From Sciscionella marina DSM 45152 (GTDB lineage: Bacteria; Actinomycetota; Actinomycetes; Mycobacteriales; Pseudonocardiaceae): a stretch of DNA of 45,740 nt. Location of the stretch: positions 1 through 45,740 of the forward strand of contig NZ_KB905406.1 of assembly GCF_000379465.1 (NCBI RefSeq), in the 5' to 3' direction. The stretch's first letter is position 1, and each line of letters begins with the position of its first letter. This document shows, piece by piece, positions 529 to 35,994 of this stretch. The translations under genes and the position numbers were made by a program. The notes beneath the pieces are model-generated. The model saw only the letters and a list, made by a program, of their open reading frames with translations, made no database searches and had not been told where the DNA came from.

Positions 529-2053
529 TCAGCCGAGCAGGATGCGGTGGCGTAGGAGTGGGAAAGCTGCGCGTCCGTGTAACTGCCGCTTGATCGCCTT
601 CGTCTTGGTGTTCACACCTTCGGTTCGTCCATTGTGGAATGGACAAGTGAGGGTGGCATTGACGGCGTCGCGGTCGAGCTCGAGCCCGCGAGTGAACGCG
701 TGCAGATGGGGCAGATCCTCGCCCCGGGCCTGGTCGATCCAGCCGGTGAGGCGCAATTCGTTGCCGGCTGTGGGGGCCAAAAGGGCAGCGAAGTCGCCGA
801 CGAGACCGGCCAGCGCTGTCATCTCGGGGCAGGCGGGCACCGCGGCGTTGAGCCGTTCTCGCTGGTGGGCTTTGAGCCGGTCTGGTCGTGTGAGCAGGTA
901 GCGGGCCAGGCGCCGTGGGGAGATGGCCGGCCGGTCGGATTCGACGCGGCCTTAGGTGATGTAGCGGTAGAGTAGGTTGAGGCTGTCGGGGTAGCCGAGC
1001 TGTGTGATCTCGGCGAACAGCGTCTGTACCGGAACGGCGGGTCGACTTCACGGCGGGGTCGATTTCACGGTGGGGTCGCAGATGCTCCCGGTAAGGGTCG
1101 ACCAACGTGGGGCGCTACTTCGGCGCCCGGACCAGCCGCTCGGGTGCGCTGATCCGGGCGTAGCGCTTGACCGTGTTGAGTGCAAGATTCAGCCGGCGGG
1201 CGCATTCCAGCAGGCCGACATCGGCATCGAGCAGGTCATGGACCTGCCGCCAGCGCTGCCGTGTGGTCTGGGCTTGGATGCCCTCTCGCGGCGGTGGTCC
1301 GGTCTTGCCCCAGCAGCTGCTGTGCGCGGCGACCTCTTTGATGACGGCCTCGGCGAGGTTATGCCAGAGGTGCCACCGGTCGGCGACCTGCACCGCGTCG
1401 GGCAGGGCACGACGGATCGCTTCGGCGTAGGCGGCCGAGCCATCCCGGCAGACCACCTCGACATCGGGGTGCTCCCGTAACCAGGCTTCGAGCACCTCGG
1501 TCTTGCGCTCCGGCAGCACGTCGACCCGCTCGCCGGTCTCCGCATTGATGATCACAGTGGCGTAGCGCTTTCGCTTACACAGCGCGAAATCGTCCACCCC
1601 GATCACGCGCGGCGTCGCCGAGGCCGGTAACGGCAGCTTCAGCAGCGGCCGCAGCGCAGTCTGCCGCGACAGCACGACTCCAAGCCCGCCCAGCACTCGC
1701 GCGCCGGCACGCCCAGCCAACTCCCGGACCACGCCGCCCACCTGCCTTGTCAACCGCACGGTGCGCCGCTGATACCGCTCGATTACGCCGGCCACCTGCT
1801 CACGGAAAGTCTGCCTTGGACACTCAAGGCTGGGCCAACGCATCCGGCGTGCCCGGAGTCGTATCAACACGCGCCGCCCACCGACCGGCATGTCGGCGAT
1901 CTGCCTACGGAAGTAGCCATGCACACGGCCCGTCCGGGCCGCGCATCCCGGGCATACCACCGGGCCAGGCGGCGTTGATGCCCACACCACGAGACACCCC
2001 GCGTCCTCCTCTACACCGTCGATGACCAGGGACGACAGCCCCGCGAACACCAA
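529..2053 (-). pseudogene. ISL3-family transposase with stops and a frameshift
   Basis: A DDE transposase of the ISL3 family that would have moved the surrounding element. From the TTG at 2053 the N-terminal half is intact (about 312 aa): zinc-finger region CPGCAARTGRVHGY, then GVDDFALCKRKRYATV and CRDGSAAYAEA, which carry family acidic residues, and ADRWHLWHN. At 1115-1117 a TAG replaces the codon after RAPK. The reading then resumes as RPTLVDPYREHL, shifts frame between about 1090 and 1040, and meets a TAA at 952-954. It then runs openly through CPEMTALAGLVGDF to the family's usual ending LLRHRILLG (stop 529-531). All domains are present in order, so two nonsense changes plus one indel inactivated a full-length copy. 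Confidence 0.88.
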
Positions 2054-19724: not shown

Positions 19725-20285
19725 TTGAAGGAACGATTGGCGAGTTATCGCGCGAAGCGGGACTCCTCGCGAACGCCGGAACCTGCCGGGGACAGCGGGC
19801 GGCGCCCAGGTGGCCCGGTGTTCGTGGTCCAGCGGCACGAGGCAAGCAGCACACACTTCGACTTCCGTCTGGAGATCGATGGTGTGTTGGTGTCCTGGGC
19901 GGTACCCAAGGGACCGTCTGTGGATCCGGACGATCGTCGGCTTGCCATACGCACCGAGGACCATCCGCTGGGCTATGCGGACTTCGAAGGACGAATACCG
20001 CAAGGCGAATACGGTGCCGGGACCGTCATCGTATGGGACACCGGCCATTTCGACGTGCTGACCACCGGGTCCGCGCGGCAGGCGCTTGCCGATGGCCATC
20101 TCACCGTATCCCTGCACGGTACTAAACTGGCCGGGGGCTTCTCGCTCATCCGCAGGCCCTCGGGTCCTCGGGAACAATGGCTGTTGCTCAAGAAGAACGA
20201 CGAAGGAGCCGACCGGCGCCGCAAGCCGGCCGAGACACAACCCGAGTCGGTCGTCAGCGACCGCACCAACAAGGACTTCGCATGA
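19725..20285 (+). CDS. LigD 3'-phosphoesterase domain protein
   Basis: A 186-residue stand-alone version of the phosphoesterase module of bacterial LigD, which trims 3' phosphates and ribonucleotides at DNA breaks. The metal and phosphate ligands known from LigD are all visible: His38, His44, Asp46 and Arg48 in RHEASSTHFDFRLEIDG, Lys62 in WAVPKGPS, and Arg76, His80 and Tyr84 in RTEDHPLGYADFEG. The IPQGEYGAGTVIVWD motif follows. It starts with TTG at 19725 after a GGGAGG site. Its stop overlaps the ligase ATG (ATGA), making it the first gene of a three-gene split-LigD operon. Confidence 0.9.
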   Translation: MKERLASYRAKRDSSRTPEPAGDSGRRPGGPVFVVQRHEASSTHFDFRLEIDGVLVSWAVPKGPSVDPDDRRLAIRTEDHPLGYADFEGRIPQGEYGAGTVIVWDTGHFDVLTTGSARQALADGHLTVSLHGTKLAGGFSLIRRPSGPREQWLLLKKNDEGADRRRKPAETQPESVVSDRTNKDFA

Positions 20286-21253
20286 GCGGCCCCGCATGGC
20301 ATGAACCCACGCTCGCCACTCTCACCGGTCGACGGTTCTCGGATGAGCATTGGCTGTTCGAACCAAAATTCGACGGCGTCCGAGCTGTCGGTGTCCGCGA
20401 TACCGGTACGCCGAAGCTGTACTCGCGCAACCGGAAAGAGATGAACGACTCCTTCCCCGAGCTCGTCGAGGCACTGACCACATGCGGCAGGCAGCGATTC
20501 GTGGTCGACGGCGAGATCGTGGCTTTCGACGGGAGGAACACCAGCTTCGCGGCCCTGCAACCCCGCATCCACCTCACCGACCCGCGCCGAGCACGCGCGA
20601 CCGGGATGACAGTGTACTACTACCTGTTCGACCTGCTCTACCTCGACGAGCGGGACACTACCGAACTGCCACTACGGCAGCGCAAAACCATGCTTCGGGA
20701 CGCGTTCGAATTCACCGATCCGGTGCGGTACACCACCCACCGCAACACCGATGGCGAGCGATACTTCAGGCAGGCATGCGGGCGTGGATGGGAAGGGGTG
20801 ATCGCCAAGCGGGCCGATGCCGCCTATCACTCGGGCCGCTCGTCTGACTGGCTGAAATTCAAATGTTCACAGGGGCAGGAATTCGTCATCGCAGGCTTCA
20901 CCGACCCACAAGGAGCCCGGCTTGGCTTCGGCGCTCTCCTGCTCGGCTATTATGAGAACGGGCGGTTGCGCTATGCGGGCAAAGTGGGCACCGGCTTCGA
21001 CGAGAGCCTTCTCGGCTCGCTGCACGCCCAACTGCGTGACGGCGAAATGCCGAGCTCACCGTTCACCGATCAGGTGCGCGAGCCGGGCGCGCATTGGGTG
21101 TCTCCGTCGTTGATCGGGCAGATCGAGTTCACCGAGTGGACCCGCGACGGCAGGCTTCGCCATCCCAGGTTCTCCGGCTTGCGCGAAGACAAGAATCCCA
21201 CCGAGGTCGTACGCGAAACACCGGGAAACGAGGACGTGACCGAAAACCGATGA
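20282..21253 (+). CDS. ATP-dependent DNA ligase (LigD ligase domain)
   Basis: A 323-residue ligase. Motif I EPKFDGVRA supplies the adenylated Lys29. Motif III is VVDGEIVAFD and FDLLYLD is nearby. Motif IV is WEGVIAKRADAAYHSGRSSD, and motif V DWLKFKCSQGQEFVIAGF ends the nucleotidyltransferase domain. The C-terminal OB domain has LLLGYYENGRLRYAGKVGTG and FTEWTRDGRLRHPRFSGLRE. It lacks phosphoesterase and polymerase modules, which are encoded by the flanking genes. The ATGA overlaps on both sides imply one mRNA and equal synthesis. It would seal double-strand breaks in non-homologous end joining. Confidence 0.92.
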   Translation: MSGPAWHEPTLATLTGRRFSDEHWLFEPKFDGVRAVGVRDTGTPKLYSRNRKEMNDSFPELVEALTTCGRQRFVVDGEIVAFDGRNTSFAALQPRIHLTDPRRARATGMTVYYYLFDLLYLDERDTTELPLRQRKTMLRDAFEFTDPVRYTTHRNTDGERYFRQACGRGWEGVIAKRADAAYHSGRSSDWLKFKCSQGQEFVIAGFTDPQGARLGFGALLLGYYENGRLRYAGKVGTGFDESLLGSLHAQLRDGEMPSSPFTDQVREPGAHWVSPSLIGQIEFTEWTRDGRLRHPRFSGLREDKNPTEVVRETPGNEDVTENR

Positions 21254-22161
21254 GCAAGGAAACCGTCAAGGCTGGCGCCAGGAGAATCCCGATCTCCAAA
21301 GCGGACAAGGTCCTGTTTCCCGAAGATAGTATTACCAAAGCGGACCTCGTCGGCTACTACCGCGACATCGCATCCACTTTCCTCCGGCACGCACGGGGTC
21401 GCCCGGTCGCAGCCGAACGCTATCCTGATGGCATCGACCAGCCGCGCATCTTCCAGAAGAACGTCCCCGAGCACTATCCGGAATGGGTGCCTCGCGTCGA
21501 GGTGGGAAAGAAAGAGGGTGGTGTCACCGTGCACGCCGTATGTGACGACACACAGACGCTCGTGTACCTCGCCGATCAGGCATGTGTCACCCCACACTTG
21601 TGGCTGTCACGCACCGACGAGCTCGACAGACCGGACCGGCTGATCTTCGACCTCGATCCGCCGGGGACCGACCTTCCCATGCTCCGGTCTGCCGCACGCA
21701 GCGTGCGCACCATCCTCGATGAGATCGGTCTGCCTGCCTTTCTCATGGCCACCGGATCCCGCGGCTTCCACGTACTGACGCCACTACGCAGGACACAAAC
21801 CTTCGACCAGGCCCGCGAATTCGCCCGCCGACTGGCCACCTTGCTCGCCGAGCGACACCCGGACATGCTCACAGTCCAGCAGCGCAAACAAGACCGGGGC
21901 GACCGCATCCTCGTCGACTACCTGCGCAACTCCTACGCACAGACCGCCGTGGCGCCCTACGCCGTACGCGCCCGACCGAACGCTCCCGTCGCGACTCCAC
22001 TGGACTGGAACGAGTTCGACACCACCACACCATGGCAGTACACCATTCATACTCTCCCGGACCGACTCAAGGACCGCGGCGACCCGTGGTCCTCACTCAG
22101 GAACCGTGCACGGACTCTGACCGAGCCACGTCGCGAACTCGAGCAGCTCATCGGCCAATGA
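21250..22161 (+). CDS. LigD polymerase-domain protein (primase-like DNA/RNA polymerase)
   Basis: A 303-residue protein of the archaeo-eukaryotic primase superfamily, which fills gaps at broken ends with ribonucleotides or deoxynucleotides. It begins ISKADKVLFPEDSITKADLV, typical of the LigD polymerase domain. DLDP (Asp134 and Asp136 in LIFDLDPPGT) gives the catalytic acids, TGSRGFHVLTPL is the family's conserved strand-turn, and RGDRILVDYLRNSYAQTAVA carries the third acid. It ends at the normal domain length. Its ATG overlaps the ligase stop. No Ku gene is in the window. Confidence 0.92.
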   Translation: MSKETVKAGARRIPISKADKVLFPEDSITKADLVGYYRDIASTFLRHARGRPVAAERYPDGIDQPRIFQKNVPEHYPEWVPRVEVGKKEGGVTVHAVCDDTQTLVYLADQACVTPHLWLSRTDELDRPDRLIFDLDPPGTDLPMLRSAARSVRTILDEIGLPAFLMATGSRGFHVLTPLRRTQTFDQAREFARRLATLLAERHPDMLTVQQRKQDRGDRILVDYLRNSYAQTAVAPYAVRARPNAPVATPLDWNEFDTTTPWQYTIHTLPDRLKDRGDPWSSLRNRARTLTEPRRELEQLIGQ

Positions 22162-22611: not shown

Positions 22612-22703
22612 GGAGGGGCACGCGTCCTGGTGGGCGCCGCGGTCTTCAAAACCGACGAGGCCGAGTATCTCGGTCTGGCGGGTTCGATTCCCGTTCCCCT
22701 CCG
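22612..22703 (+). tRNA. selC: tRNA-Sec (anticodon TCA)
   Basis: The 92-nt sequence folds as selenocysteine tRNA. A seven-pair acceptor stem GGAGGGG/CCCCTCC is extended by an eighth C·U opposition, as Sec tRNAs have an 8-bp acceptor. A 6-bp D stem (GCGTCC/GGGCGC) closes a four-base loop. The anticodon loop CTTCAAA carries TCA, a 7-bp extra arm (GGCCGAG/CTCGGTC) follows, and the T loop is TTCGATT. The discriminator is G. The CCA tail is not encoded in full (G-CC-G). It reads UGA as selenocysteine and lies 96 bp before selD, in the same orientation as the whole cassette. Confidence 0.93.
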
Positions 22704-22799
22704 CCGACGGGTCCGACCGCGTTTCCAACCTCGTGCGGCCGGGTATGCCCTACGCTTGCGTGTGTGCCCTGACCTGACCGCGTGCAGGAGGTTGCCAGG

Positions 22800-23795
22800 A
22801 TGCCCCGTTCGATCCGGATGACCCAGTACGCCCACGGCGGCGGGTGCGCGTGCAAGATCCCGCCTGGCGAGCTGGAGCAGGCGGTCGCCGGGCTGGTCGG
22901 CGCCGGAGCAGGCGAGCACGAACTGCTCGTGGGGCTCGATGACGGGGACGACGCCGCGGCAGTGCGCCTCGAAGGCGACACCGCGATCATCGCGACCACC
23001 GACTTCTTCACCCCTGTGGTCGACGACCCGTACGACTGGGGCCGGATCGCCGCGGCGAACGCGCTCTCCGACGTGTACGCGATGGGTGGCAGGCCGGTGC
23101 TCGCGGTGAACTTGCTCGGTTGGCCTCGGGAGAGGTTGCCGACCGAGTTGCTGACCGAGGTGCTGCGCGGTGGAGCGACCGTCGCGTCCACGGCGGCTTG
23201 CCATCTCGCGGGCGGGCACAGCATTGATGACCCGGAGCCCAAGTACGGGCTGGCGGTGACCGGGACCGGCAGTGCGCAGCGACTGCTGCGATTGGGGAGC
23301 GGCGAACCCGGCACCCCGTTGTCGTTGACCAAGCCGCTGGGGATCGGCGTGCTGAACACTCGCCACAAGGCGACCGGCGAACGATTCGAGCAGGCGATCC
23401 AGGCGATGACCGCCCTCAACCGCGAGAGCTCCGAGGCCGCGGTGCGGGCGGGGCTGCGGTGCGCCACGGACGTGACCGGATTCGGCCTGCTCGGGCATCT
23501 GTACAAACTTGCCCGCGCCAGCGGGGTGACCGCGCGCGTCGACCCTGCCGCGGTGCCCTATCTCGAAGGGGCGCGCGAGGCCGCTGAGCAGGGGTTCGTC
23601 AGCGGGGGTACCCGCCGCAACCTCGACTGGGTATGGCCGCACACACGCTGGGGCGCGAGTGTCGGTGAGCTGGACCAGCTACTGCTCGCGGACGCGCAGA
23701 CATCCGGTGGACTGCTTGTCGCCGGGGAATTGCCCGGCGCGCCGGTGGTCGGGGAACTCACCGAAGCCAGTGACAGCCCACTGGTGGTGGGCTGA
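22800..23795 (+). CDS. selD: selenide, water dikinase (selenophosphate synthetase)
   Basis: A 331-residue enzyme that makes selenophosphate, the selenium donor, from selenide and ATP. The flexible N-terminal active-site loop reads QYAHGGGCACKI, with Cys16 and Lys19 at the positions known to be catalytic (Cys17 and Lys20 in E. coli). Cysteine rather than selenocysteine is used. Further family motifs are TTDFFTPVVDDPYDWGRIAA and ANALSDVYAMGG (metal-binding aspartates) and CATDVTGFGLLGH. AGGAGG at 22786-22791 fixes the ATG at 22800. Its TGA shares one base with the selA ATG, so the genes are coupled. Confidence 0.95.
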   Translation: MPRSIRMTQYAHGGGCACKIPPGELEQAVAGLVGAGAGEHELLVGLDDGDDAAAVRLEGDTAIIATTDFFTPVVDDPYDWGRIAAANALSDVYAMGGRPVLAVNLLGWPRERLPTELLTEVLRGGATVASTAACHLAGGHSIDDPEPKYGLAVTGTGSAQRLLRLGSGEPGTPLSLTKPLGIGVLNTRHKATGERFEQAIQAMTALNRESSEAAVRAGLRCATDVTGFGLLGHLYKLARASGVTARVDPAAVPYLEGAREAAEQGFVSGGTRRNLDWVWPHTRWGASVGELDQLLLADAQTSGGLLVAGELPGAPVVGELTEASDSPLVVG

Positions 23796-25111
23796 TGCCG
23801 GACAGCGATCCGCGGCGGACCGTGCCACGAACCGATGTGGTGCTCGCCGATCCACGGCTTGCGAGCGTGCGCGAGCGGGTCGGCAGAGACGTGCTCAAAC
23901 GCGCGGTGCACGCGGCGCAGGAAGCAGTGCGCGGCGAGATGCTCCTCCCGGAAGGGGTCGTGGAGGCCGTGTTGGCCGCGTTCCCGGCCCGGCCGTGCTC
24001 ACTGCGGCCGGTCGTCAACGCGACCGGGGTCGTGCTGCACACGAACCTGGGCCGCGCGCCGCTGTCCGAGCGAGCCGTCGAAGCGCTCAGCGGCGCAGCC
24101 GGGTACACCGATGTGGAGTACGACGTGCGCACCGGCACGCGGGCGCGGCGTGGCGCGGCGGCTGCCGACGCGTTGCGCGATGCGGTCCCCGCGGCCGCGG
24201 ATGCGCTCGTGGTCAACAACGGTGCCGCCGCGCTGGCGTTGGCCGCTACCGCGCTGGCCGCGGGCCGTGAGATCGTCGTCAGCCGCGGCGAGATGGTCGA
24301 GATCGGCGACGGGTTCCGCATCCCCGAGCTCGTGGCCAGTACCGGCGCCCGGCTGCGCGAGGTCGGCACCACGAACCGCACGAGCCTTTCCGATTATGCG
24401 CAGGCGCTCGGCCCGGACACGGGGTTCGTACTCAAGGTCCATCCGTCGAACTTCACCATCGGCGGGTTCACTTCCTCGGTGCCGGTACGTGAGCTCGCCG
24501 GGCTTGGAGTGCCCGTGGTCGCCGACATCGGTTCCGGCCTGCTGCACCCCGATCCGCTGCTTCCGGACGAACCCGACGCGCAGGGCTGGCTCGCGCAAGG
24601 CGCTGCTGTTGTCACCGCGAGCGGCGACAAGCTGCTCGGCGGCCCGCAAGCCGGATTCGTACTCGGCGAGCGGGAGACGGTGCGACGGCTGCGCAAGCAC
24701 CCGCTCGCGCGCGCGATGCGGGTGGACAAGCTCGTCCTGGCCGCGTTCGAGGCCACACTGCTCGGTGCGGGAGACACGCCGGTGCTGCGCGCGCTGCACG
24801 CCGATGAGGGCTCGTTGCGCGTCCGTGCGGAGGCATTGGCGGCCGAACTCGCGCGCGGCGGTGTCGACGCGGATACCGTGCCTTCGGAGGGGATGGTCGG
24901 TGGCGGCGGCGCGCCACAAGTCCGGTTGCCCGGCTGGGCCGTCGCCCTGCCTGAAGCGTTCGCCGCATCACTGCGCTTGGGCCGGCCGTGTGTCGTCGGC
25001 AGGCTCGAAGCGGGCCAATGCCTGCTCGACCTGCGCTGCGTTCCCGCAAGCGACGACGAGCGGTTGGCCGCGGCGGTGCGCACGGCGGCGCGGGAGCGGG
25101 CATGCACGTGA
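23795..25111 (+). CDS. selA: L-seryl-tRNA(Sec) selenium transferase
   Basis: A 438-residue PLP enzyme that converts Ser-tRNA-Sec to Sec-tRNA-Sec using selenophosphate. Motifs include [48 protein letters not shown] and [10 protein letters not shown]. The PLP lysine is Lys279 in [14 protein letters not shown]. Length is close to the usual ~460. It starts on the last base of the selD stop and overlaps selB by 10 bp. The selD-selA-selB order with overlaps implies one transcript. Confidence 0.95.
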
Positions 25112-26922
25112 TCGCGACCGCAGGCCACGTCGACCATGGCAAGTCGACGTTGCTGCGCTCGCTGACCGGAATGGACCCCGACCGGTGGGCCGAGGAACAC
25201 CGGCGCGGCATGACGATCGACCTCGGCTATGTGTGGACGACCTTGCCCGTACACGGCGATCTGGTGTTCGTGGACGTACCAGGACACGAACGGTTCATCA
25301 CCAACATGCTCGCCGGGATCGGCCCGGTCCCCGCGGCGCTACTGGTGATCGCCGCCGATGAAGGGTGGTGCAAGCAGACCGAGGAGCACGCGGCCGCGCT
25401 CGAGGCGCTCGGCGTCCGGCACGGATTGCTCGCGGTGACCCGCTGCGATCTTGCCCCGGCCGGTCCTGCGATCAATGCGGCAAAACGACGGCTGGCGGGT
25501 ACGTGTCTGGATGCGTTCGAGGCGGTCGCGGTCAGCGGCGCGACCGGCGAGGGCCTTGGCGAACTGCGCGAGGCGCTTGAGCGATTGGTGGCGACCATGC
25601 CCGCGCCCGCGTCCTCGGCCACCCGGCTGTGGGTGGACCGCGTGTTCACGGTGCGTGGCGCGGGCACCGTCGTGACGGGGACGCTCACCGGAGGGTCGAT
25701 CAGCATCGGAGATGAACTGCTGGTCTCCCCCTCGGGCGAATCCGTGCGCGTCAAGGGCGTGGAGAGTCTCAAGCAGCGGATTGGATCGGTCTCGGCTGTG
25801 GCCAGGGTGGCGGTGAATCTGCGCGGGCTGGATCGCAACCGCCTGCGCCGAGGAGATGCTCTGCTCGCGCGCGGCCGGTGGAGCGAGGCATACACCATGG
25901 ATGTCCGTGTGGAAACCGAACGATTGCCCACTGCCCCGATGCTGCACCTTGGTTCGGCCGCGGCCTCGGCGCACGTGCGCCCCCTCGGCGCACACACCGC
26001 GCGACTAGCGGTGCGTCGTCCGCTGCCGGTGCACGTAGGCGAACGGCTCATCCTGCGCGATCCGGGCACGCGGCACGTGACCGGTGCGGTCGTCCTGGAC
26101 ACCGATCCGCCGCCGCTGGACCGCCGGGGCGCGGCCGCGCGCCGCGACGCCGAACTCGCCGCGGTCACCGGCGAACCCGATCCGGCAGGCGAGGTACGCA
26201 GGCGCGGCACGGTGCGGCGGGATCTGCTGGTCACTGCGGGGGTGCTCGCCCCGGATGCGCCCACACCGGAAGGTGCCGTTTCCGCGGGCGCATGGCTCGC
26301 CGACGCGGACCGCTGGCGAGACTGGCAACGCGAGTTGACCAGGCTGGTGGACCGGCACGCGCGGGAGCGACCACTGGCCCCCGGCCTCATCCCTGCCACA
26401 GCCGCCCGGGTGCTGGGCCTGCCGGAATCGGCTGTGCTGGAACCGCTTGTCGCGGCATGTGCCGAGCTGGTCGTCGATGCGCACGGGATACACCGTCGCG
26501 GCACGACACCGACACTGCCCGACCAGCCCGCCGCGGCGCTGCACCGGTTGCGAGAGCGGCTGCAGCGCGAACCGTTCGCCGCGCCCGAGCTTCCCGAGCT
26601 CGCCGAGGCCGGGCTGACCGCCGCGCATCTGGCCGTCGCCGTACAGCAGGAACAGCTGCTGCGGGTCGCCGACGGGGTGTACTTGCTTCCCGATGCGCCA
26701 GCGCAGGCGCACCGTGCGCTGGCCGGGCTCACCGAACCGTTCACCATCAGCGAAGCCCGCCGTGTGCTGGGCACCAGCAGGCGTGTGGCGGTGCCGTTGC
26801 TCGAACTCCTCGACGGGTACGGGGTGACGGTGCGTGTCGATGGCAACCGCCGCAAGTTGACCGGTGAACGGTGCTCAGGACAAGTACCGGGACAAGCGCC
26901 CGAAGACACCGGGCTGCGTTAG
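25102..26922 (+). CDS. selB: selenocysteine-specific translation elongation factor
   Basis: A 606-residue GTPase that brings Sec-tRNA-Sec to the ribosome at UGA codons marked by a SECIS hairpin. The N-terminal EF-Tu-like part has P-loop GHVDHGKST (residues 8-16), [21 protein letters not shown]3 DVPGHERFI and a G4-equivalent VTRCDL. Beta-barrel domains follow ([20 protein letters not shown]). The C-terminal ~270 residues would form the four winged helices that bind the SECIS, ending [20 protein letters not shown]. It starts inside the selA end (ATG 25102). Only 78 bp separate it from fdhA, its likely client. Confidence 0.95.
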
Positions 26923-26925
26923 GGC

Positions 26926-26964
26926 CCGGGTACGTGCATAATCCGCGGGAAGACGGGTACCCGG
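26926..26964. promoter_or_regulatory. inverted repeat upstream of fdhA
   Basis: CCGGGTAC (26926-26933) and GTACCCGG (26957-26964) form an 8-bp dyad with 23 nt between them, starting just after the selB stop and ending 36 bp before the fdhA start. A CATAAT sequence inside (26937-26942) could be a -10 box. It may be an operator, an attenuating hairpin or a weak terminator between the sel and fdh genes. Confidence 0.35.
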
Positions 26965-27000
26965 AAATGCGACGGCAGGCGAGCGGGACGGGGAACGGCG

Positions 27001-30000
27001 TTGGGCGTGAAGCGGTGGCTGAACTGGCCGGTACTGCGCCAGTTCGCGAGCACCGACCCGAGCGGGCGTGGTGCGGCGGCCAAGAGTCGTACCAGTGCGA
27101 ACCTCTCCCCGCGCACCGCCGACGCGGACCGGATCGTGAAGTCGGTGTGCCCGTACTGCGCGGTCGGCTGCGGGCAGAACGTCTACGTGCGTGGCGAGCG
27201 TGTCACACACATCGAGGGCGACCCGGATTCGCCCGTCAGCCGCGGCAGGCTGTGCCCGAAAGGGTCGGCATCACTGCAGTTGACCACCGGTCCGGGTCGC
27301 GAGCATCGGGTGCTCTACCGCAGGCCTTATGGCACCGACTGGGAGCAACTGGACCTGGACACGGCGCTGGACATGATCGCCGACCGGGTGATCAAGGCGC
27401 GCGGTGAGTACTGGCAGTGGCAGCAGGACGACGTCCGCACGCGCCGCACGATGGGGTTCGCGAGCCTCGGCGGCGCCACACTGGACAACGAGGAGAACTA
27501 CCTGATCAAGAAACTGTTCACCGCGCTCGGGGCGGTGCAGATCGAGAATCAGGCACGTGTTTGACACTCCTCGACAGTGCCCGGTCTGGGTACTTCCTTC
27601 GGTCGCGGCGGCGCCACGACATTCCAGCAGGATCTGCAGCACTCGGACTGCATCCTCATCGAGGGTTCCAACATGGCCGAATGCCATCCGGTCGGTTTCC
27701 AGTGGGTGATGGAAGCCAAAGCACGCGGCGCCACGGTCATCCACGTGGACCCGCGGTTCACCAGGACCAGTGCGCTCGCTGATCTGCACGTGCCGCTGCG
27801 TGCGGGCACCGACATCGCCTTCCTCGGCGGCATCGTCAACTACGTGCTGGCGAACGAGAAGTACTTCCACGACTACGTGGTGCACTACACCAACGCGGCC
27901 TCGATCGTGACCGAGGACTACGCCGGACCGGCGGACATGGACGGGTTCTTCTCCGGGTTCGACGCCGAGAAGCGCCACTACGACTTCCACACCTGGCAGT
28001 ACGAGGGTGCCGAAGTGCAGGCGGCATCGGGCGAGCGCGATCTGGAGTACCCGGACCGCGCGGGCGGCGACCCGCCGTCCGGCTCCGGCGTGCGCCAGGC
28101 GGGGCGCGGCGAGGCACACGGTTCCGGCGGGGCCAGTTCGGGGCAGGCACGCACCGATCCGACGCTGCGCCACCAGCGCACCGTGTTCCAGATCCTCAAA
28201 CGGCACTTCGCGGATTACACCCCCGAGATGGTCGAGCAGGTGTGCGGGGTACCGCCGGAGAAGTTCCTGCGCGTGTGCGAGTACCTGACCGAGAACTCCG
28301 GGCGCGAGCGCACCAGCGCGTTCGTGTACTCGGTCGGCTGGACCCAGCACACCGTCGGCGTGCAGTACATCCGCACCGCGTCCATCCTGCAGACCCTGCT
28401 GGGCAACATCGGCAGGCCCGGCGGCGGGATCCTGGCCTTACGCGGCCACGCCTCCATCCAGGGGTCGACGGACATCCCCACGTTGTTCAACTTGCTGCCC
28501 GGCTACATCCCGATGCCCCACGCACACGCCAACCAGGACCGGGCGGCCTTCCTCGCGGCCGAAGGCACGGACAAAGGGTACTGGGCGAACATGGGCGCAT
28601 ACCTGACCAGCTTGCTCAAGGCCTGGTGGGGTCCGGCGGCGACACCGGAGAACGATTTCTGCTTCGACTACCTGCCACGGTTGACCGGCAGTCACAGCAC
28701 CTACGAGACGGTCATGGCCCAGACCAGGCGCGAGTGCGTCGGCTATTTCCTGTATGGGGAGAATCCGGCTGTCGGTTCGGCGAACGCGAAGCTGCAGCGG
28801 CTCGGTATGGCCGCGCTGGACTGGCTCGTGGTCCGCGACTTCTCGCTCATCGAGAGCGCCACATGGTGGAAGGACGGCCCGGAGATCGAGAGCGGGGAAC
28901 TGTCCACACGCGAGATCGCCACCGAGGTGTTTTTCCTGCCCGCTGCCGCACATACCGAGAAAGACGGCAGTTTCACCAACACCCAGCGGATGCTGCAGTG
29001 GCACCATGCGGCCGTGGAACCGGAAGGTGACGCGCGCAGCGACCTGTGGTTCACCTACTACCTCGGCAAACGCATCCGGGAGAAACTCACGGGCAGTACC
29101 GACGACAGGGACCGGCCGCTTCTCGACCTGACATGGGACTACCCGGTGCACGGGCCGCTGGACGAACCGGACGCCGACGCGGTGCTCGCCGAGATCAACG
29201 GCGCCGATGCGCAGGGGAATCCGCTGTCCAGCTACGAGCAACTCACCGACGACGGCAGCACGACGTGCGGTTGCTGGATCTACTGCGGCGTACGCGCCGG
29301 CGGGGCCAACCAGGCCGCCCGCCGGGAACCGGGCGATCGGCAGAACTGGGTCGCCAACCAGTGGGGGTGGGCGTGGCCGGCCAACCGGAGGATCCTCTAC
29401 AACCGCGCCTCCGCCGACCCGGACGGCCGCCCCTGGAGCGCGCGCAAGGCACTCGTGTGGTGGGACTCCGATGAGCAGCGCTGGACCGGTCACGACGTCG
29501 CCGACTTCGCCGCCACGAAACCGCCGGACTATCAGCCGCCATCTGATGCGCACGGGCCCGCCGCCCTGGCGGGCACCGAACCGTTCGTGATGCAAGACGA
29601 TGGCAAGGCGTGGCTGTTCGCCCCGGCCGGGCTCGTGGACGGCCCGCTGCCCGCCCACTACGAACCGCAGGACTCGCCGTTCGAGAACCGGCTCTACCCG
29701 CAACAGCGCAACCCCGTGCGGCAGGTACTGCCGTTCAAGGGCAAGCACAACCGGATGCAGCCAAGCGGAGCGCAACCGGGTACGGAAGTGTTCCCCTACG
29801 TCGCGACGACCTACCGGCTCACCGAGCATCACACTGCCGGCGGGATGAGCCGCTGGCAGCCCTACCTCGCGGAGCTGCAACCGGAGATGTTCTGCGAGAT
29901 CTCCCCGGAACTCGCCGCGCAGCGCGGCCTGACCCACCTTGGCTGGGCCACGATCGTCACCGCGCGTGCCGCGATCGAGGCCCGCGTGCTGGTCACCGAA

Positions 30001-30267
30001 CGGATGAGCCCGATCGCCGTGCAGGGCCGCACGCTGCACCAGGTCGGGCTGCCCTACCACTGGGGCCACAACGGCTATAGCACCGGCGACGCGGCCAACG
30101 AACTGGCCGCGCTCTCGCTCGACCCGAACGTGCACATCCAGGAGGTGAAGGCGTTCGCCTGCGACATCCGCCCCGGCAGGCGCCCGGATGCCGCGGGCAC
30201 AGCCGAACTGGTGCGCGAATACCAGCGCAGAGCGGGAATCACCGACGAGACCGGAACGGAGATCTGA
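27001..30267 (+). CDS. fdhA: formate dehydrogenase major subunit, selenoprotein (Sec188)
   Basis: A 1088-residue catalytic subunit of a membrane-associated formate dehydrogenase (FDH-N/O class), binding molybdenum or tungsten bis-MGD and one 4Fe-4S cluster. The cluster ligands are Cys50, Cys53 and Cys57 (CPYCAVGCGQ) and Cys85 (GRLCPKGSA). The reading frame has one in-frame TGA at 27562-27564, in NQARV-U-HSSTVPGLGT, exactly where FdnG/FdoG have selenocysteine. Both flanks match the family closely and a SECIS hairpin follows, so it is recoded and not a mutation. Downstream are FGRGGATTFQQDL, ALRGHASIQGSTDIPTLFNL and the C-terminal VHQVGLPYHWGHNGYSTGDA cap. A glycine-rich linker sits near residues 340-385. 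TTG at 27001 was chosen (GGGGA just upstream); GTG at 27007 is possible. No Tat signal is evident. Confidence 0.95.
27562..27593 (+). promoter_or_regulatory. UGA selenocysteine codon and bacterial SECIS hairpin
   Basis: After TGA (27562-27564), GTGCCC (27577-27582) pairs with GGGTAC (27588-27593) around the loop GGTCT (27583-27587). The first loop G is 19 nt after the UGA, the same spacing as GGUCU in E. coli fdhF. A G in this loop is what SelB recognises in known bacterial SECIS elements. The lower stem was not worked out here. Confidence 0.8.
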
Positions 30268-30268
30268 C

Positions 30269-31222
30269 ATGACCGACACGGCATCGAGCACGGGTAGCGG
30301 GCACGATCCCGCGGCGGCGAGTGGCTACCCGGACCACCCTCCGCGGATGGGCTTCTTCACCGACACCTCGGTGTGCATCGGTTGCAAGGCCTGCGAGGTC
30401 GCCTGCAAGGAATGGAACCTGATCCCCGAAGACGGCCTCGACCTGACCGGCATGTCCTATGACAACACCGGCGGGCTCAGTGCCGACACGTGGCGGCATG
30501 TGGCGTTCATCGAGCAACGCAAACCGATCGGCGTGCAAGACCCTGGATTGCAGCACACCGGGGATGTGCTGGCGATGGCCGAGCAGGGTGCGGCCACCCC
30601 TCCCGCGGACGCCGCGATGAATCCCACCACACCGGGCCAAGCAGGTGAGTTCCGCTGGCTGATGTCCAGTGATGTGTGCAAGCACTGCACCCACGCCGCA
30701 TGCCTGGATGTTTGCCCGACCGGTTCGCTGTTCCGTACCGAATTCGGCACCGTGGTCGTGCAGGAGGACATCTGCAACGGCTGCGGCTACTGCATTCCCG
30801 CCTGCCCATACGGCGTGATCGACCGCCGCGAGGGCGATGGCAGAGCGTGGAAATGCACGCTGTGCTACGACCGGATCGGCGCGGGCGGTGAACCGGCGTG
30901 TGCCAAGGCGTGTCCGACCGAGTCCATCCAGTTCGGCCCCCTCGACCAGCTGCGCGAGCGGGCGCGGCAACGTGTCGAGCAGCTGCACGGCGAGGGAGTC
31001 GCCGATGCCCGGCTCTACGGCGCGGACCCGGACGACGGTGTCGGCGGGGACGGGGCGTTCTTCCTGCTGCTCGACGAACCCGAGGTCTACGGTCTGCCAC
31101 CTGACCCTGTCGTCACCACGCGCGATCTGCCGTCCATGTGGCGTCATGTCGCCGCCGCGGCGGGCACGCTGGTCGGTATGGCCGCCGCCGCGTTTACCGC
31201 CGCCGCGTTCGGCAAGCGCTGA
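30269..31222 (+). CDS. formate dehydrogenase iron-sulfur (beta) subunit
   Basis: A 317-residue electron-transfer subunit carrying four 4Fe-4S clusters. The four cysteine motifs are CIGCKACEVACKEW (residues ~35-48), CKHCTHAACLDVCP, CNGCGYCIPACPYG, and CTLCYDRIGAGGEPACAKAC. A single C-terminal hydrophobic helix (AAAAGTLVGMAAAAFTAAAF) would anchor it and contact the membrane subunit. It starts one base after the fdhA stop (ATG 30269, with GGAG about 7 bases before). It relays electrons from the selenocysteine active site of FdhA toward the quinone-binding subunit. Confidence 0.93.
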   Translation: MTDTASSTGSGHDPAAASGYPDHPPRMGFFTDTSVCIGCKACEVACKEWNLIPEDGLDLTGMSYDNTGGLSADTWRHVAFIEQRKPIGVQDPGLQHTGDVLAMAEQGAATPPADAAMNPTTPGQAGEFRWLMSSDVCKHCTHAACLDVCPTGSLFRTEFGTVVVQEDICNGCGYCIPACPYGVIDRREGDGRAWKCTLCYDRIGAGGEPACAKACPTESIQFGPLDQLRERARQRVEQLHGEGVADARLYGADPDDGVGGDGAFFLLLDEPEVYGLPPDPVVTTRDLPSMWRHVAAAAGTLVGMAAAAFTAAAFGKR

Positions 31223-31243
31223 ACCGTCCCTGAGGAGGCCGAC

Positions 31244-32290
31244 ATGAGCCACACCGACGCCGCAGGCAACCGCGCGCGCACCGGCCGCAACGCGGTCACC
31301 GGAGGACGCAGGCACCGGCGCAAACACGGTGAGCAGCCCATGGTGCCCGATGCCGAATTCGGCTCCTACTACGGACTTCCGGTGCTCAACGCGCCGGTAT
31401 GGAAGACACCCGACGTGCCCGGCTATCTGTTCTTGGGGGGCCTCGCGGGAGCGGGTTCGCTGCTCGGCGCTGGAGCCGCGCTCACCCGCAGGCCCACACT
31501 CCAGCGGATCACGACGACGGGCTCGATCGGAAGTGCGCTCGTGTCCCTCGCGGCACTCGTACACGACCTTGGCAGGCCAGCGCGGTTCCTGAACATGCTG
31601 CGTGTGTTCAAACCGAGTTCGCCGATGAGCGTGGGTTCCTGGCTGTTGTCGGCGTATGCGCCTGCCGCCGGGGTCGCCGCGGTGTGGGCACATCGCGAGG
31701 GGCTCGTCAGAGTGGCGGCCGTATCAAGCGTGCTCGAGCGGTTTCCCACCATCACAAGGATCGCAGGCACAGGCGCCACCGCGGCAGCCGCGGTCACCGG
31801 GCCCGCCGTGGCCGCATACACCGCCGCCCTGCTCAGCGACACCGCCGTACCCGCATGGCACGACGGCTACCGTGAACTGCCGTTCGTGTTCATCGGGTCG
31901 GGCGCGGCAGCAGCCGGTGGGCTGGGGCTGTTCGCACCGACAACGGAGAGCGTGCCTGCGCGCGTGTTCGCCGTGCTGGGGGCAGGCTGTGAGCTCTTCG
32001 CGTTCGAGCGCATGCGTAGCAGGCTCGGCATGGTCGGGGAACCCTACGACACCGGCCCCGGCGGCATGTACCTCAAGGCCAGCAAGGCACTCGCGGTCTG
32101 CGGTGCCGCCGGAGCCGTGCTTGGCCGGCGAAGCCGGGTGATCAGTGCGCTCTCCGGTGCGGCGCTGTTCGCGGCTTCTGCCGCCACCCGCTGGGGCGTG
32201 TTCCACGCAGGACTGACCTCAGCCAAAGATCCGAAATACACCGTCGTGCCACAACGAGAACGGCTCAACCAGCGGCGCACGCGGCAGTAG
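31244..32290 (+). CDS. NrfD-type membrane subunit of formate dehydrogenase
   Basis: A 348-residue polytopic protein with about eight hydrophobic segments, beginning after a basic N-terminal tail (PDVPGYLFLGGLAGAGSLLG; GSIGSALVSLAALVHDLG; MSVGSWLLSAYAPAAGVAAV). The VHDLGRPARFLNMLRVFKPS loop is typical of NrfD/PsrC proteins, which take the place of the cytochrome b gamma subunit and react with menaquinone. GAGGAGG at 31232-31238 precedes the ATG. It is the last gene of the fdh operon; the acetate kinase gene ends convergently 234 bp away. Confidence 0.88.
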   Translation: MSHTDAAGNRARTGRNAVTGGRRHRRKHGEQPMVPDAEFGSYYGLPVLNAPVWKTPDVPGYLFLGGLAGAGSLLGAGAALTRRPTLQRITTTGSIGSALVSLAALVHDLGRPARFLNMLRVFKPSSPMSVGSWLLSAYAPAAGVAAVWAHREGLVRVAAVSSVLERFPTITRIAGTGATAAAAVTGPAVAAYTAALLSDTAVPAWHDGYRELPFVFIGSGAAAAGGLGLFAPTTESVPARVFAVLGAGCELFAFERMRSRLGMVGEPYDTGPGGMYLKASKALAVCGAAGAVLGRRSRVISALSGAALFAASAATRWGVFHAGLTSAKDPKYTVVPQRERLNQRRTRQ

Positions 32291-32524: not shown

Positions 32525-33610
32525 TCAGGAACCCCCAAGCAGCATGCGGGCGTCCCTGGCCATCGGCACATCCTCACGAGCCGCGATCACCAGCGTGCGG
32601 ACGGCCGCGTCCGGGGTGCTGATATCGGTGTCGGGCTCTGCGCCGACGTTGTGCGGCTCATCCACCGTGACACCGAGATAGCCGAGCGCGGTGGCCACGT
32701 GTGTCCGTACGAATGACTCGTTCTCACCTACTCCGCCGGTGAACACCAGAGCGTCCAATCCGCCGAGAGCCGCGGTCATGGCCGCGATCGCGGCGCAGAG
32801 CTCGTGCAGGTAGACATCCACCGCACGGCGAGCGTCTCGATCCGCGCGCCCGCGCAGCTCGCCGATGTTGGGATTGCCTGCCATGCCGAGCAGACCGGAG
32901 TGGTACTGCAGGGTATCGGCGAGTTCCTCGACACCGATGCCCGCATGTTGTTGCAGCCACAGCAGAATCGACGGGTCCACGCGACCGCTGCGGGTGCTCA
33001 TCACCAGGCCTTCTAGTGGGGTGAACCCCATGGTGGTATCAAGGCTGTGGCCGTGTCGCACCGCGGCCAGCGAGGCGCCCGCACCGAGATGGCAGACGAC
33101 GATGCGAATATCCTTGTCCGCAAGCAGTCCCACCGCTCGCGTCGAGGCGTACTCGTGGGACAGCCCGTGGAACCCGTACTTCCGGATGCCGAACCGATCC
33201 CGCCATTGCCTTGGTAATGCGTAGTCCCTTGCCGCATCGGGCATCCGTGAGTGGAACGCGGTGTCGAAACAAGCCACCACGGGCAGACCGGGCAGCTGAT
33301 CGGCGACGATGTCGATGGCGGCCAGAGCCATTGGCTGGTGCGCCGGAGCCAGCGGTATCAGCTCCATCAGTTCTGAGCGCACATCCCTGTCCACCAGGAC
33401 GCTGCCGGTGAACCGGTCGCCTCCGTGCACGATCCGGTGCGCAACCGCGTCAACCCGGCCAAGTCGTTCGGTGAATCGCGACAGGCGCTCGCGGTCGATC
33501 TGCCCCTTGTGGACGGCGATGTCCTCGCTGTCCAGCACTGTGTCGGACTCGTCCACCAACCGTAGTTTCAGGCTGCTGGAACCGCAGTTGACCGTCATCA
33601 CCGTGGTCAC
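32525..33610 (-). CDS. ackA: acetate kinase
   Basis: A 361-residue ASKHA-fold kinase converting acetyl phosphate and ADP to acetate and ATP. Motifs are [16 protein letters not shown] at the N-terminus, [91 protein letters not shown] and [15 protein letters not shown]. It is shorter than the ~400 residues of E. coli AckA, as is common next to phosphoketolase. I chose the GTG at 33610, which overlaps the phosphoketolase stop as GTGA; ATG 33598 would also work. The frame stays open far upstream only as a shadow of the phosphoketolase gene. Confidence 0.92.
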
Positions 33611-35994
33611 GATGGCCACGACCAGTCGCGAACCTCGGGCGGATCTTCTCCGTACTGTCGGGTATAAAGCCGGGCGCGCAGCCGGGTGTCGACCATCTGT
33701 TGTCGTAGTTGGGCTCTGCGCACGCCGAGACCGGGGACACGATCGATCACGTCCATCACGAGGTGGTAGCGGTCGAGTTCGTTGAGCATCACCATGTCGA
33801 AGGGGGTGGTCGTGGTGCCCTCCTCGATGTATCCGCGAACGTGCAGGTTCGCGTGGTTGCTCCGCCGGTAGGTCAACCGGTGGATCAGCCACGGATAACC
33901 GTGGTAGGCGAAGATGACCGGCCTGTCTTCGGTGAACAGCGCGTCGAACTCGGCATCGGGCAGGCCGTGCGGATGCTGGTGCTCGTCTTGCAGCCGCATC
34001 AGGTCGACCACGTTGACCACACGCACGTTCAGCTCCGGGATGTGGCGATGCAGCAGGTCCGTGGCGGCGAGGGTCTCCAGCGTCGGCACATCGCCCGCGC
34101 AGGCGAGCACCACATCCGGTTCCGCGTCGGTGCTGCTCGCCCAGTCCCAGATCCCGAGGCCGCGGGTGCAGTGTTCGATGGCGGCGTCCGGTCCGAGCCA
34201 TACCGGTTCCGGGTGTTTCCCGGCTATGACGACGTTGACCAGATTCTCGCTGCGCAGGCAGTGGTCCATCACCGAGAGCAGCGTGTTCGCGTCCGGTGGC
34301 AGGTATACCCGGACGAAGTCCGCCTTCTTGTTCACCACGTGGTCGATGAACCCTGGGTCCTGATGAGAGAAACCGTTGTGGTCCTGTCTCCACACATGCG
34401 AGGAAAGCAGGTAGTTCAGCGATGCGATCGACGCGCGCCAAGGGATTTCCTTGCTGACCTTCAGCCACTTGGCGTGCTGATTGAACATCGAGTCGATGAT
34501 GTGGGTGAACGCCTCGTAGCAGTTGAAGACACCGTGCCTTCCGCTGAGCAGGTAGCCCTCCAGCCAGCCCTGGCACAGATGCTCGGAGAGCACCTCCAGC
34601 ACGCGGCCGTCCGGCGCCAGGTGGTCGTCGCCGGCTCGCAGTTCAGCGGTCCACGCCCGGTTGGTGACGTCGAAGACGGACTCCAACTTGTTCGAAGTCG
34701 TCTCGTCCGGCCCGAACAGCCGAAAGTTCGCCGCCTCTTGATTGGCGGTGAACACCGAACGCAGGAAACCGCCCAGTGCCGCCATACCGCTCTGGTTCAC
34801 CGCGCCCGGAGCCGGAAGTGCAGTCAGATAGTCCCGGAAATTCGGCAGTCGCAATGGTCTGCGCAGCAGACCGCCGTTCGCGTGCTCGTTTGCGCTCATC
34901 CGCGCGTTGCCGTACGGAGCGAGATCGGCGAGTTCGGATCGCAGCGTCCCGTTACCGTCGAAGAGTTCCTCCGGACGGTAGGAGCGCAGCCAGCTCTCCA
35001 GTTGCCGTCGATGCTCGGTGTTGGTGCGCACTTCCGCGAGCGGGACCTGGTGCGCGCGGAAGGTTCCTTCCACAGCCATCCCATCCACCTCGGCCGGTCC
35101 GGTCCATCCCTTCAGGGTGCGCAACACGATCATCGGCCAGATCGGTCGTATCGATTCGCCGTCTTCACGGGCGGTACGCTGGATCGCGCCGATTTCGGCG
35201 ACCACGGTGTCCAGCGCCGCTGCCATCTGCTCGTGCATCGTTTGCGGATCCGTCCCGCTGACCAGGTAGGGCCGGTAGCCGTAGCCTTCCAGCAGGCTCA
35301 CCAACTCGGGCTCGGGAATCCTGGCAAGCACCGTGGGGTTGGCGATCTTGTACCCGTTGAGATGCAACACCGGCAGCACGGCTCCATCGGCACGCGGGTC
35401 GAGGAATTTGTTCGAGTGCCAGCTCGCGGCGAGCGGCCCCGTCTCCGCCTCCCCGTCGCCGATCACGCAGCAGGCCAGCAAATCGGGATTGTCGAACACG
35501 GCGCCGAACGCGTGCAGCAGCGAATAGCCGAGCTCCCCGCCCTCGTTGATCGAACCCGGTGTCTCCGGAGCGGCATGGCTGGGGATTCCTCCGGGGAAGG
35601 AGAACTGCCGAACCAACTTGGCCAACCCCGCTTCATCCTGGGTCACATCGGGGAACCGCTGGCTGTAGGTACCTTCCAGGTAGGCGTTCGCCACCACACC
35701 TGGGCCACCGTGACCGGGCCCGGCAACGAAGATGGCATTCAGCTTCTCCTGTCGGATCACCCGGTTGAGGTGGGCATACACGAAATTCAGACCAGGCGTG
35801 GTGCCCCAGTGACCGAGCAGTCTCGGTTTCAGATGTTCGGCTTGGAGCGGCTCCCGCAACAACGGGTTGTCCAACAGATAGAGTTGCGCGGCGGATAGGT
35901 AGTTGGCCGCGCGCCAGTACCGATCGAGCCGCTCGAGCACTGTCGCGGTGCTTTTCGGTGCCGTATCGATCGGTTGCTCTGCGACGTGTCCCAT
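33607..35994 (-). CDS. xfp: phosphoketolase (xylulose-5-phosphate/fructose-6-phosphate)
   Basis: A 795-residue thiamine-diphosphate enzyme that splits xylulose 5-phosphate (and often fructose 6-phosphate) with phosphate to acetyl phosphate. Family motifs are [10 protein letters not shown]-type start [80 protein letters not shown], and the TPP/metal motif [25 protein letters not shown] is near the C-terminus. Length is normal. The stop overlaps the ackA start, coupling acetyl phosphate production to ATP formation. The ribosome site before ATG 35994 is weak. Confidence 0.94.

Follow-up and report, generated by a model that had tools for sequence, protein, structure and literature searches.

Positions 22612-32290 of contig NZ_KB905406.1 of Sciscionella marina DSM 45152 carry the genes for decoding selenocysteine (Sec) together with their client, a formate dehydrogenase (FDH) that is probably membrane-associated and molybdenum-dependent. 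The stretch analysed, hereafter the window, is 45,740 nucleotides long and is an entire contig of this 8.54 Mb, 98% complete genome. The best reading, a Sec-decoding gene set with its client that was laterally acquired at least in part and maybe put together from two pieces, was given a probability of about 0.93 as a whole. The gene content and coordinates given in an earlier first-pass annotation of the window proved correct: all features lie on the + strand, and the tRNA for Sec (tRNA-Sec), selD, selA, selB and FdhA each exceeded the cut-off of their family model. Chance can be excluded as the source of this tRNA-Sec-sel-fdh locus, the features of which are listed here.

22612..22702, + strand: tRNA-Sec (selC), anticodon UCA (ARAGORN; Infernal RF01852, 75.9 bits, gathering cut-off 47)
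22800..23795 (alternative GTG start 22782), + strand: selD, selenophosphate synthetase, Cys form (TIGR00476, 384.7 bits, cut-off 125)
23795..25111, + strand: selA, L-seryl-tRNA(Sec) selenium transferase (TIGR00474, 418.2 bits, cut-off 267.9)
25102 (ATG) or 25108 (GTG)..26922, + strand: selB, Sec-specific elongation factor (TIGR00475, 274 bits, cut-off 242.25)
27007..30267 (alternative TTG start 27001), + strand: fdhA, formate dehydrogenase alpha subunit (NF041513 formate_DH_Act)
27577..27593, + strand: bacterial Sec insertion sequence (bSECIS) stem-loop within fdhA, 27577-27582 pairing with 27588-27593, loop GGUCU
30269..31222, + strand: fdhB, 4Fe-4S electron-transfer subunit (Fer4_11, 82.3 bits)
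31244..32290, + strand: fdhC, NrfD-like membrane subunit (PF03916 NrfD, 56 bits, cut-off 25.8)

The in-frame UGA of fdhA and its hairpin

The fdhA frame, of 1086 codons, contains a single internal stop codon, TGA at 27562-27564, which lies in the context of the FdhA active site, and the reading frame continues undisturbed before and after it. With this codon read as Sec, the protein gave a full-length match to NF041513 (1966.1 bits, cut-off 1400). The comparison set consisted of 121 loci of relatives, namely 80 recovered via SelA, that of the sister species (the only other species of the genus examined) and 40 same-family loci recovered via SelB. The 40 were hand-picked across genera from the better SelB matches, with the family inferred from a shared contig to be Pseudonocardiaceae, and L016 and L165, both counted among the 121, are the same contig. 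Reading of the active site yielded 81 rows, drawn from 77 loci. Retained were those in which the TGA stands in a QAR context (74); the other seven were judged spurious and removed. In the resulting 74 loci with a readable motif, TGA occupied the site in every case and Cys in none.

The hairpin, which we take to resemble that of E. coli fdhF, has its first paired base at the 13th position after the UGA, and its 6 bp stem is held at this fixed distance across the relatives. In the 75 rows made up of the window and the 74 loci, the loop was GGTCT or AGTCT in 73 and AGTTT in two. One pair links the third position of a Val codon to that of a Gly codon, replaced by Ala in a single row; this wobble-to-wobble pair was standard in 75 of 75 rows with five pair types, against a mean of 55.6 in shuffles. 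Among the 34 distinct sequences, 99.0% of 204 cells were paired, compared with 91.3% after shuffling, and the covariation score was 0.291 against 0.116 for shuffles, none of 500 of which scored as high. Shifting the register destroyed the signal. Two coarser covariation measures were equalled by 12 and 3 of 500 shuffles. Covariation at synonymous sites thus backs the SECIS independently of expression data.

These data also bear on a reading of fdhA as a pseudogene, with the TGA arising from a sequencing error or acting as a genuine stop. This is extremely improbable, given that both TGA and hairpin persist in 74 of the relatives' loci, that synonymous sites covary and that the frame is open on either side.

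Decoding genes, FDH subunits and selenoprotein number

Six matches to RF01852 were found genome-wide, and that at 22612-22702 alone exceeds the cut-off. SelB also matches the Pfam model SelB-wing_3 (50.8 bits). The first-pass annotation had described the decoding genes as lying head to tail with overlaps, and this stands for selD and selA, which overlap by one base, and for selA and selB, where the overlap is 10 bases with the ATG start of selB and 4 with the GTG. The tRNA-Sec gene overlaps nothing and is separated from selD by 79 or 97 bases, according to the selD start. The spacing of 78 bp given between selB and fdhA applies if fdhA starts at TTG 27001; for the likelier GTG at 27007 it is 84 bases. 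As had been proposed, SelD uses cysteine: the codon at the site occupied by Sec in Sec-type SelD is TGC, in the context GGGCACKI (the UxxK motif of SelD is treated in a passage of PMC13188914).

Homology, and partly experiments in another actinomycete, suggest how Sec insertion, enzyme activity and electron transfer would proceed. SelD would supply selenophosphate, SelA would convert Ser-tRNA-Sec to Sec-tRNA-Sec, and SelB would bring the latter to the ribosome and bind the hairpin just 3' of UGA 27562, so that this codon would be read as Sec and placed in the FdhA active site. FdhABC would then convert formate to CO2, with electrons passing via FdhB to the NrfD-like FdhC and probably from there to the quinone pool. 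FdhB carries a C-terminal hydrophobic stretch, as judged by eye alone, and FdhC gave zero matches to NCBIfam models. The FdhD protein is required for FDH maturation, and the cassette must likewise draw on serine-tRNA synthetase and molybdopterin synthesis encoded elsewhere. FdhD is encoded on another contig of the genome, and is present in the sister species also. The locus holds a full set of Sec genes with one visible client, and the description of it as self-contained is a loose one.

The genomes of S. marina and the sister species each hold one tRNA-Sec above the cut-off and one NF041513 match with one TGA, and the FdhA-type SECIS model gave one convincing match per genome, the next best having E = 9. 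A search for the UGSC selenoprotein found none in this genome or the sister, while the same search was positive in 7 of 24 genomes. The first-pass annotation had counted one visible selenoprotein and had called for a scan for further UGA-containing families and SECIS elements; within the families covered (FdhA, UGSC and the FdhA-type SECIS) that count was borne out, FdhA being the only one found. Within the window, a UGA-gene scan with a strict codon-composition filter missed fdhA, which was recovered by a relaxed filter; six further rows from the relaxed scan look like normal translation stops or frames without coding function. A pairwise six-frame comparison of loci for shared in-frame TGA codons was swamped by overlapping frames and was not used.

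UGSC proteins have been described in ocean samples, according to part of PMC2398784. In genus g32 (G131 and G147; L160, L161, L188-L190, L192-L195, L197), tRNA-Sec abuts selB, selA lies ~50 kb off and UGSC-family genes are found near the loci. Matches to NF041046 contained one in-frame TGA in five of six cases in G131 and six of eight in G147. No NF041513 FdhA was found in G147 at E <= 1e-100; G131 and G147 are each listed with 6% contamination.

Gene order among relatives

In 69 of the 121 loci tRNA-Sec, selD, selA, selB and fdhA were all present, and in 68 they lay within 12 kb. For these gene-order counts, gene matches below 44% identity had been dropped beforehand, fdhC exempt, and the codon count of L007, which looks off frame, was not used. 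The clustering itself had been considered notable on the grounds that such genes are scattered in many genomes; the counts do not support this, in agreement with Zhang et al. 2006, a passage of which (PMC1794560) reports that Sec-decoding genes and fdhA often form one operon, especially in organisms with just one selenoprotein gene. What is unusual at this locus is the single-strand order and the ancestry, the cassette type itself being already known. A comparison of relatives for the whole block, as had been proposed, found it in the sister species, with identical order and strand and protein identities of 68-88% (FdhA 88%); this was alone among the 121 loci in having all five core genes on one strand. 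In seven loci fdhA is directly 3' of selB on the same strand, at 300 bases or less. An arrangement with selD immediately 5' of selA was seen in three (the sister and two Actinomadura). The selD gene is contiguous to selA-selB in the window; where a species also has ybbB this is seldom so, as stated in an excerpt of PMC1273633.

Of 100 genomes sampled from the family, 63 had a tRNA-Sec gene over the cut-off, so the Sec trait is patchy within it. A similar pattern is described in part of PMC4048454, where the trait is present in Amycolatopsis mediterranei and absent in A. orientalis. A second tally, based on SelB matches at E <= 1e-20 in 297 genomes of the family, of which 279 gave one, was discarded as a presence count because many best matches near 1e-21 were judged to be ordinary elongation factors.

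Actinomycetospora belongs to the Pseudonocardiaceae. The FDH1 cluster of Actinomycetospora chiangmaiensis DSM 45062, as set out in a portion of PMC7176365, holds Sec-FdhA, FdhB, FdhC, SelA and SelB together, as here, but SelD is not assigned to it and the organism has three Sec-FDH systems. Formate removal in that species was selenite-dependent, and SelA, SelB, SelD and FDH subunits were detected by proteomics (same portion). In Corynebacterium aurimucosum, selD, selA and selB are numbered consecutively and clustered with a UGA-containing FDH (fdnG-fdxH), much as in the window; the locus numbers in the relevant part of PMC2830990 place fdh (0962, 0964) before sel (0966-0968), whereas here fdh follows selB. 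The corresponding region of Streptomyces and Actinomadura contains the same genes, usually within 12 kb, with the same SECIS and FdhA mostly 74-77% identical, but tRNA-Sec and fdhA typically run on the strand opposite to that of selA, selB and selD.

Several other arrangements were noted in passing. In genus g5 (L136, L137, L138) a divergent SelD-like gene, of 52-55% identity, is transcribed away from the adjoining selA; in L137 it lies ~1 kb from selA, and its branch in the SelD tree is very long. In L154, L156 and L158 (G233, G092 and G029) a gene 5' of tRNA-Sec and sel encodes a remote formate dehydrogenase with 37-38% identity to the window FdhA, interrupted by an in-frame TGA in two of the genomes, G233 and G092; the proteins of L156 and L158 fall outside the motif pattern used for the active-site reading. 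Two tRNA-Sec genes over the cut-off were present in each of G092 and G004.

Around the cassette in the window, the LigD ligase and polymerase domains are encoded by two separate, slightly overlapping genes directly 5' of it (20177-22161), and adjacent acetate kinase and phosphoketolase genes (32525-35994, - strand) are oriented toward it. Near the contig end, an open reading frame at 1115-2053 (- strand) resembles an ISL3-type transposase, a putative assignment from the translation alone.

Ancestry of the two halves

The ancestry of the sel genes and of fdhABC was studied in careful trees of 28 to 53 chosen rows. These replaced earlier quick trees, in which Streptomyces had been thinned to every fifth or sixth row and rows covering less than 60% of the query dropped, leaving, with the window included, 94 rows for selD, 118 for selA, 114 for selB and 77 for fdhA. 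In the careful trees none of the three Sel proteins of the genus (SelA, SelB, SelD) joins the main family groups. SelB is in a clade (100/99) with L155 of genome G269 and with L030 and L041, the second sel sets of Actinomadura sp. K4S16 and A. darangshiensis, and SelD belongs to a set of six (97/93) that includes L030, L041, L155 and L198, the last also from G269. The nearest relatives of the window SelA (76%) and SelD (83%) are those of L198, while SelB of the L198 set is 48% identical.

Approximately unbiased (AU) tests were applied to groups that were defined only after the trees had been seen. Joining the genus to a family subgroup was rejected for SelA (p-AU 3.3e-6), the subgroup alone forming a clade. 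Further AU tests of 25 family rows plus the genus (SelB, p 4.4e-5; SelA, p 5.7e-9) were left unused, as those rows lacked a genus-free control. FdhA forms a clade (99/98) with L147 of G125 and L204 of G269, within a clade (100/100) that also takes in five of eight Streptomyces-group rows and four of four Actinomadura rows, and joining it to a main family group was again rejected (p-AU 8.4e-6).

These rejections bear on vertical inheritance from the family ancestor, with selD locally rearranged; the version of it that survives is an ancient duplication followed by differential loss. In favour of such a history, the trait occurs widely in the family (63/100), and sel genes are mostly found close together and frequently close to fdhA; set against the SelA and FdhA tests, with the caveat on how their groups were named, this history is considered improbable. 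Given that neither half falls within the main family groups and that the two have partly distinct closest relatives, the cassette was in our reading laterally acquired at least in part, maybe as two pieces. Sec-trait transfers among Actinobacteria are listed by Peng et al. 2016, in a section of PMC5029168.

Judged from the trees, the locus may well be a mosaic in which Sec machinery of a second lineage has been combined with fdhABC of lateral origin. It is conceivable, at rather less than even odds, that the family Sec machinery of the genus was replaced by that of a second actinobacterial lineage (L030, L041 and L155; for SelD and SelA also L198) and that fdhABC was joined to it. The two Actinomadura sets of this lineage have selD-selA-selB on one strand, as in the window, but their tRNA-Sec has the reverse orientation and the 21 kb locus lacks fdhA; in these genomes fdhA adjoins a different selA-selB-selD set (L202, L203), in loci where tRNA-Sec was not found. 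Each of the two genomes, G297 (L030, L203) and G298 (L041, L202), thus holds two such sets, on different contigs. Literature searches brought up no mention of Actinomadura, and its double sets are not claimed to be new. A UGA-gene scan near the window-lineage sets of G297 and G298 found nothing convincing.

Entry of tRNA-Sec-selDAB-fdhABC into the genus as a single unit from an unsampled donor was also weighed. Both halves being outside the main family groups would fit such an entry, as would the occurrence of the whole block in both species with different surroundings, the sister having no lig genes in the left 10 kb and its assembly no phosphoketolase match at E <= 1e-30. Co-transfer of sel and fdhA has been argued for Pseudomonadales by Zhang et al., in a passage of PMC1794560. 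On the other side stand the absence of the single-strand block from the other 120 loci and the two Actinomadura, with their matching sel set apart from fdhA. G269 is relevant in both directions. It has kin of every part (SelD and SelA in L198, SelB in L155, FdhA in L204), which makes one common donor possible and moved the odds slightly from the mosaic to the single unit; these kin sit on separate contigs. Overall, entry as one unit is regarded as somewhat unlikely. The first-pass suggestion that the cassette could be transferred as a unit goes further than these data, in which the nearest relatives of the halves partly differ and the G269 kin keep a common donor possible.

The G269 assembly (L155, L198, L199, L204) contains three sel sets and a Sec-FdhA on separate contigs, and it may be a mixed assembly, since 7% contamination is listed for it. 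In L198 a UGSC gene with a TGA lies between selA and selB (11317, - strand).

A number of results weigh against a Sec-decoding FDH locus of second-lineage, partly lateral origin. The folding energy of the SECIS was not significantly different from that of shuffled sequence (z -0.03 to -0.55); greater stability than shuffles was not considered defining for a bSECIS, and covariation was used instead. The best NCBIfam match of FdhB, TIGR01582 FDH-beta, reached 183.4 bits, below its cut-off of 334.7, and the fdhB tree placed the window in no starred set. In the SelD tree the SelD of the sister joins L198 and not the window (99/88), and for SelA the lineage of six rows has low support as a clade (72/42). 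The AU test of SelB pointed in the same direction as that of SelA, but its control subgroup was itself rejected (p-AU 0.005), probably because L198 was included in it. Finally, the presence in G269 of kin of every part tells against a mosaic.

The locus adds one further case, in both examined species of a little-sampled genus, to the pattern in which the single selenoprotein is usually FdhA and the sel genes are nearby. If the replacement outlined above is correct, its new part is the swap of machinery and client. The second lineage coexists with a classical set in the two Actinomadura and in G269, so in some actinomycetes two Sec machineries may operate within the same cell; a genome with two complete Sec operons has been reported, that of Photobacterium profundum 3TCK, as noted in part of PMC5330540. 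In G269 one sel set lies next to a UGSC selenoprotein gene and not to formate dehydrogenase. Sec machinery and client may recombine between lineages, with some actinomycetes carrying more than one sel set, and this would raise the question of whether SelB/SECIS pairs within one cell are interchangeable or partitioned.

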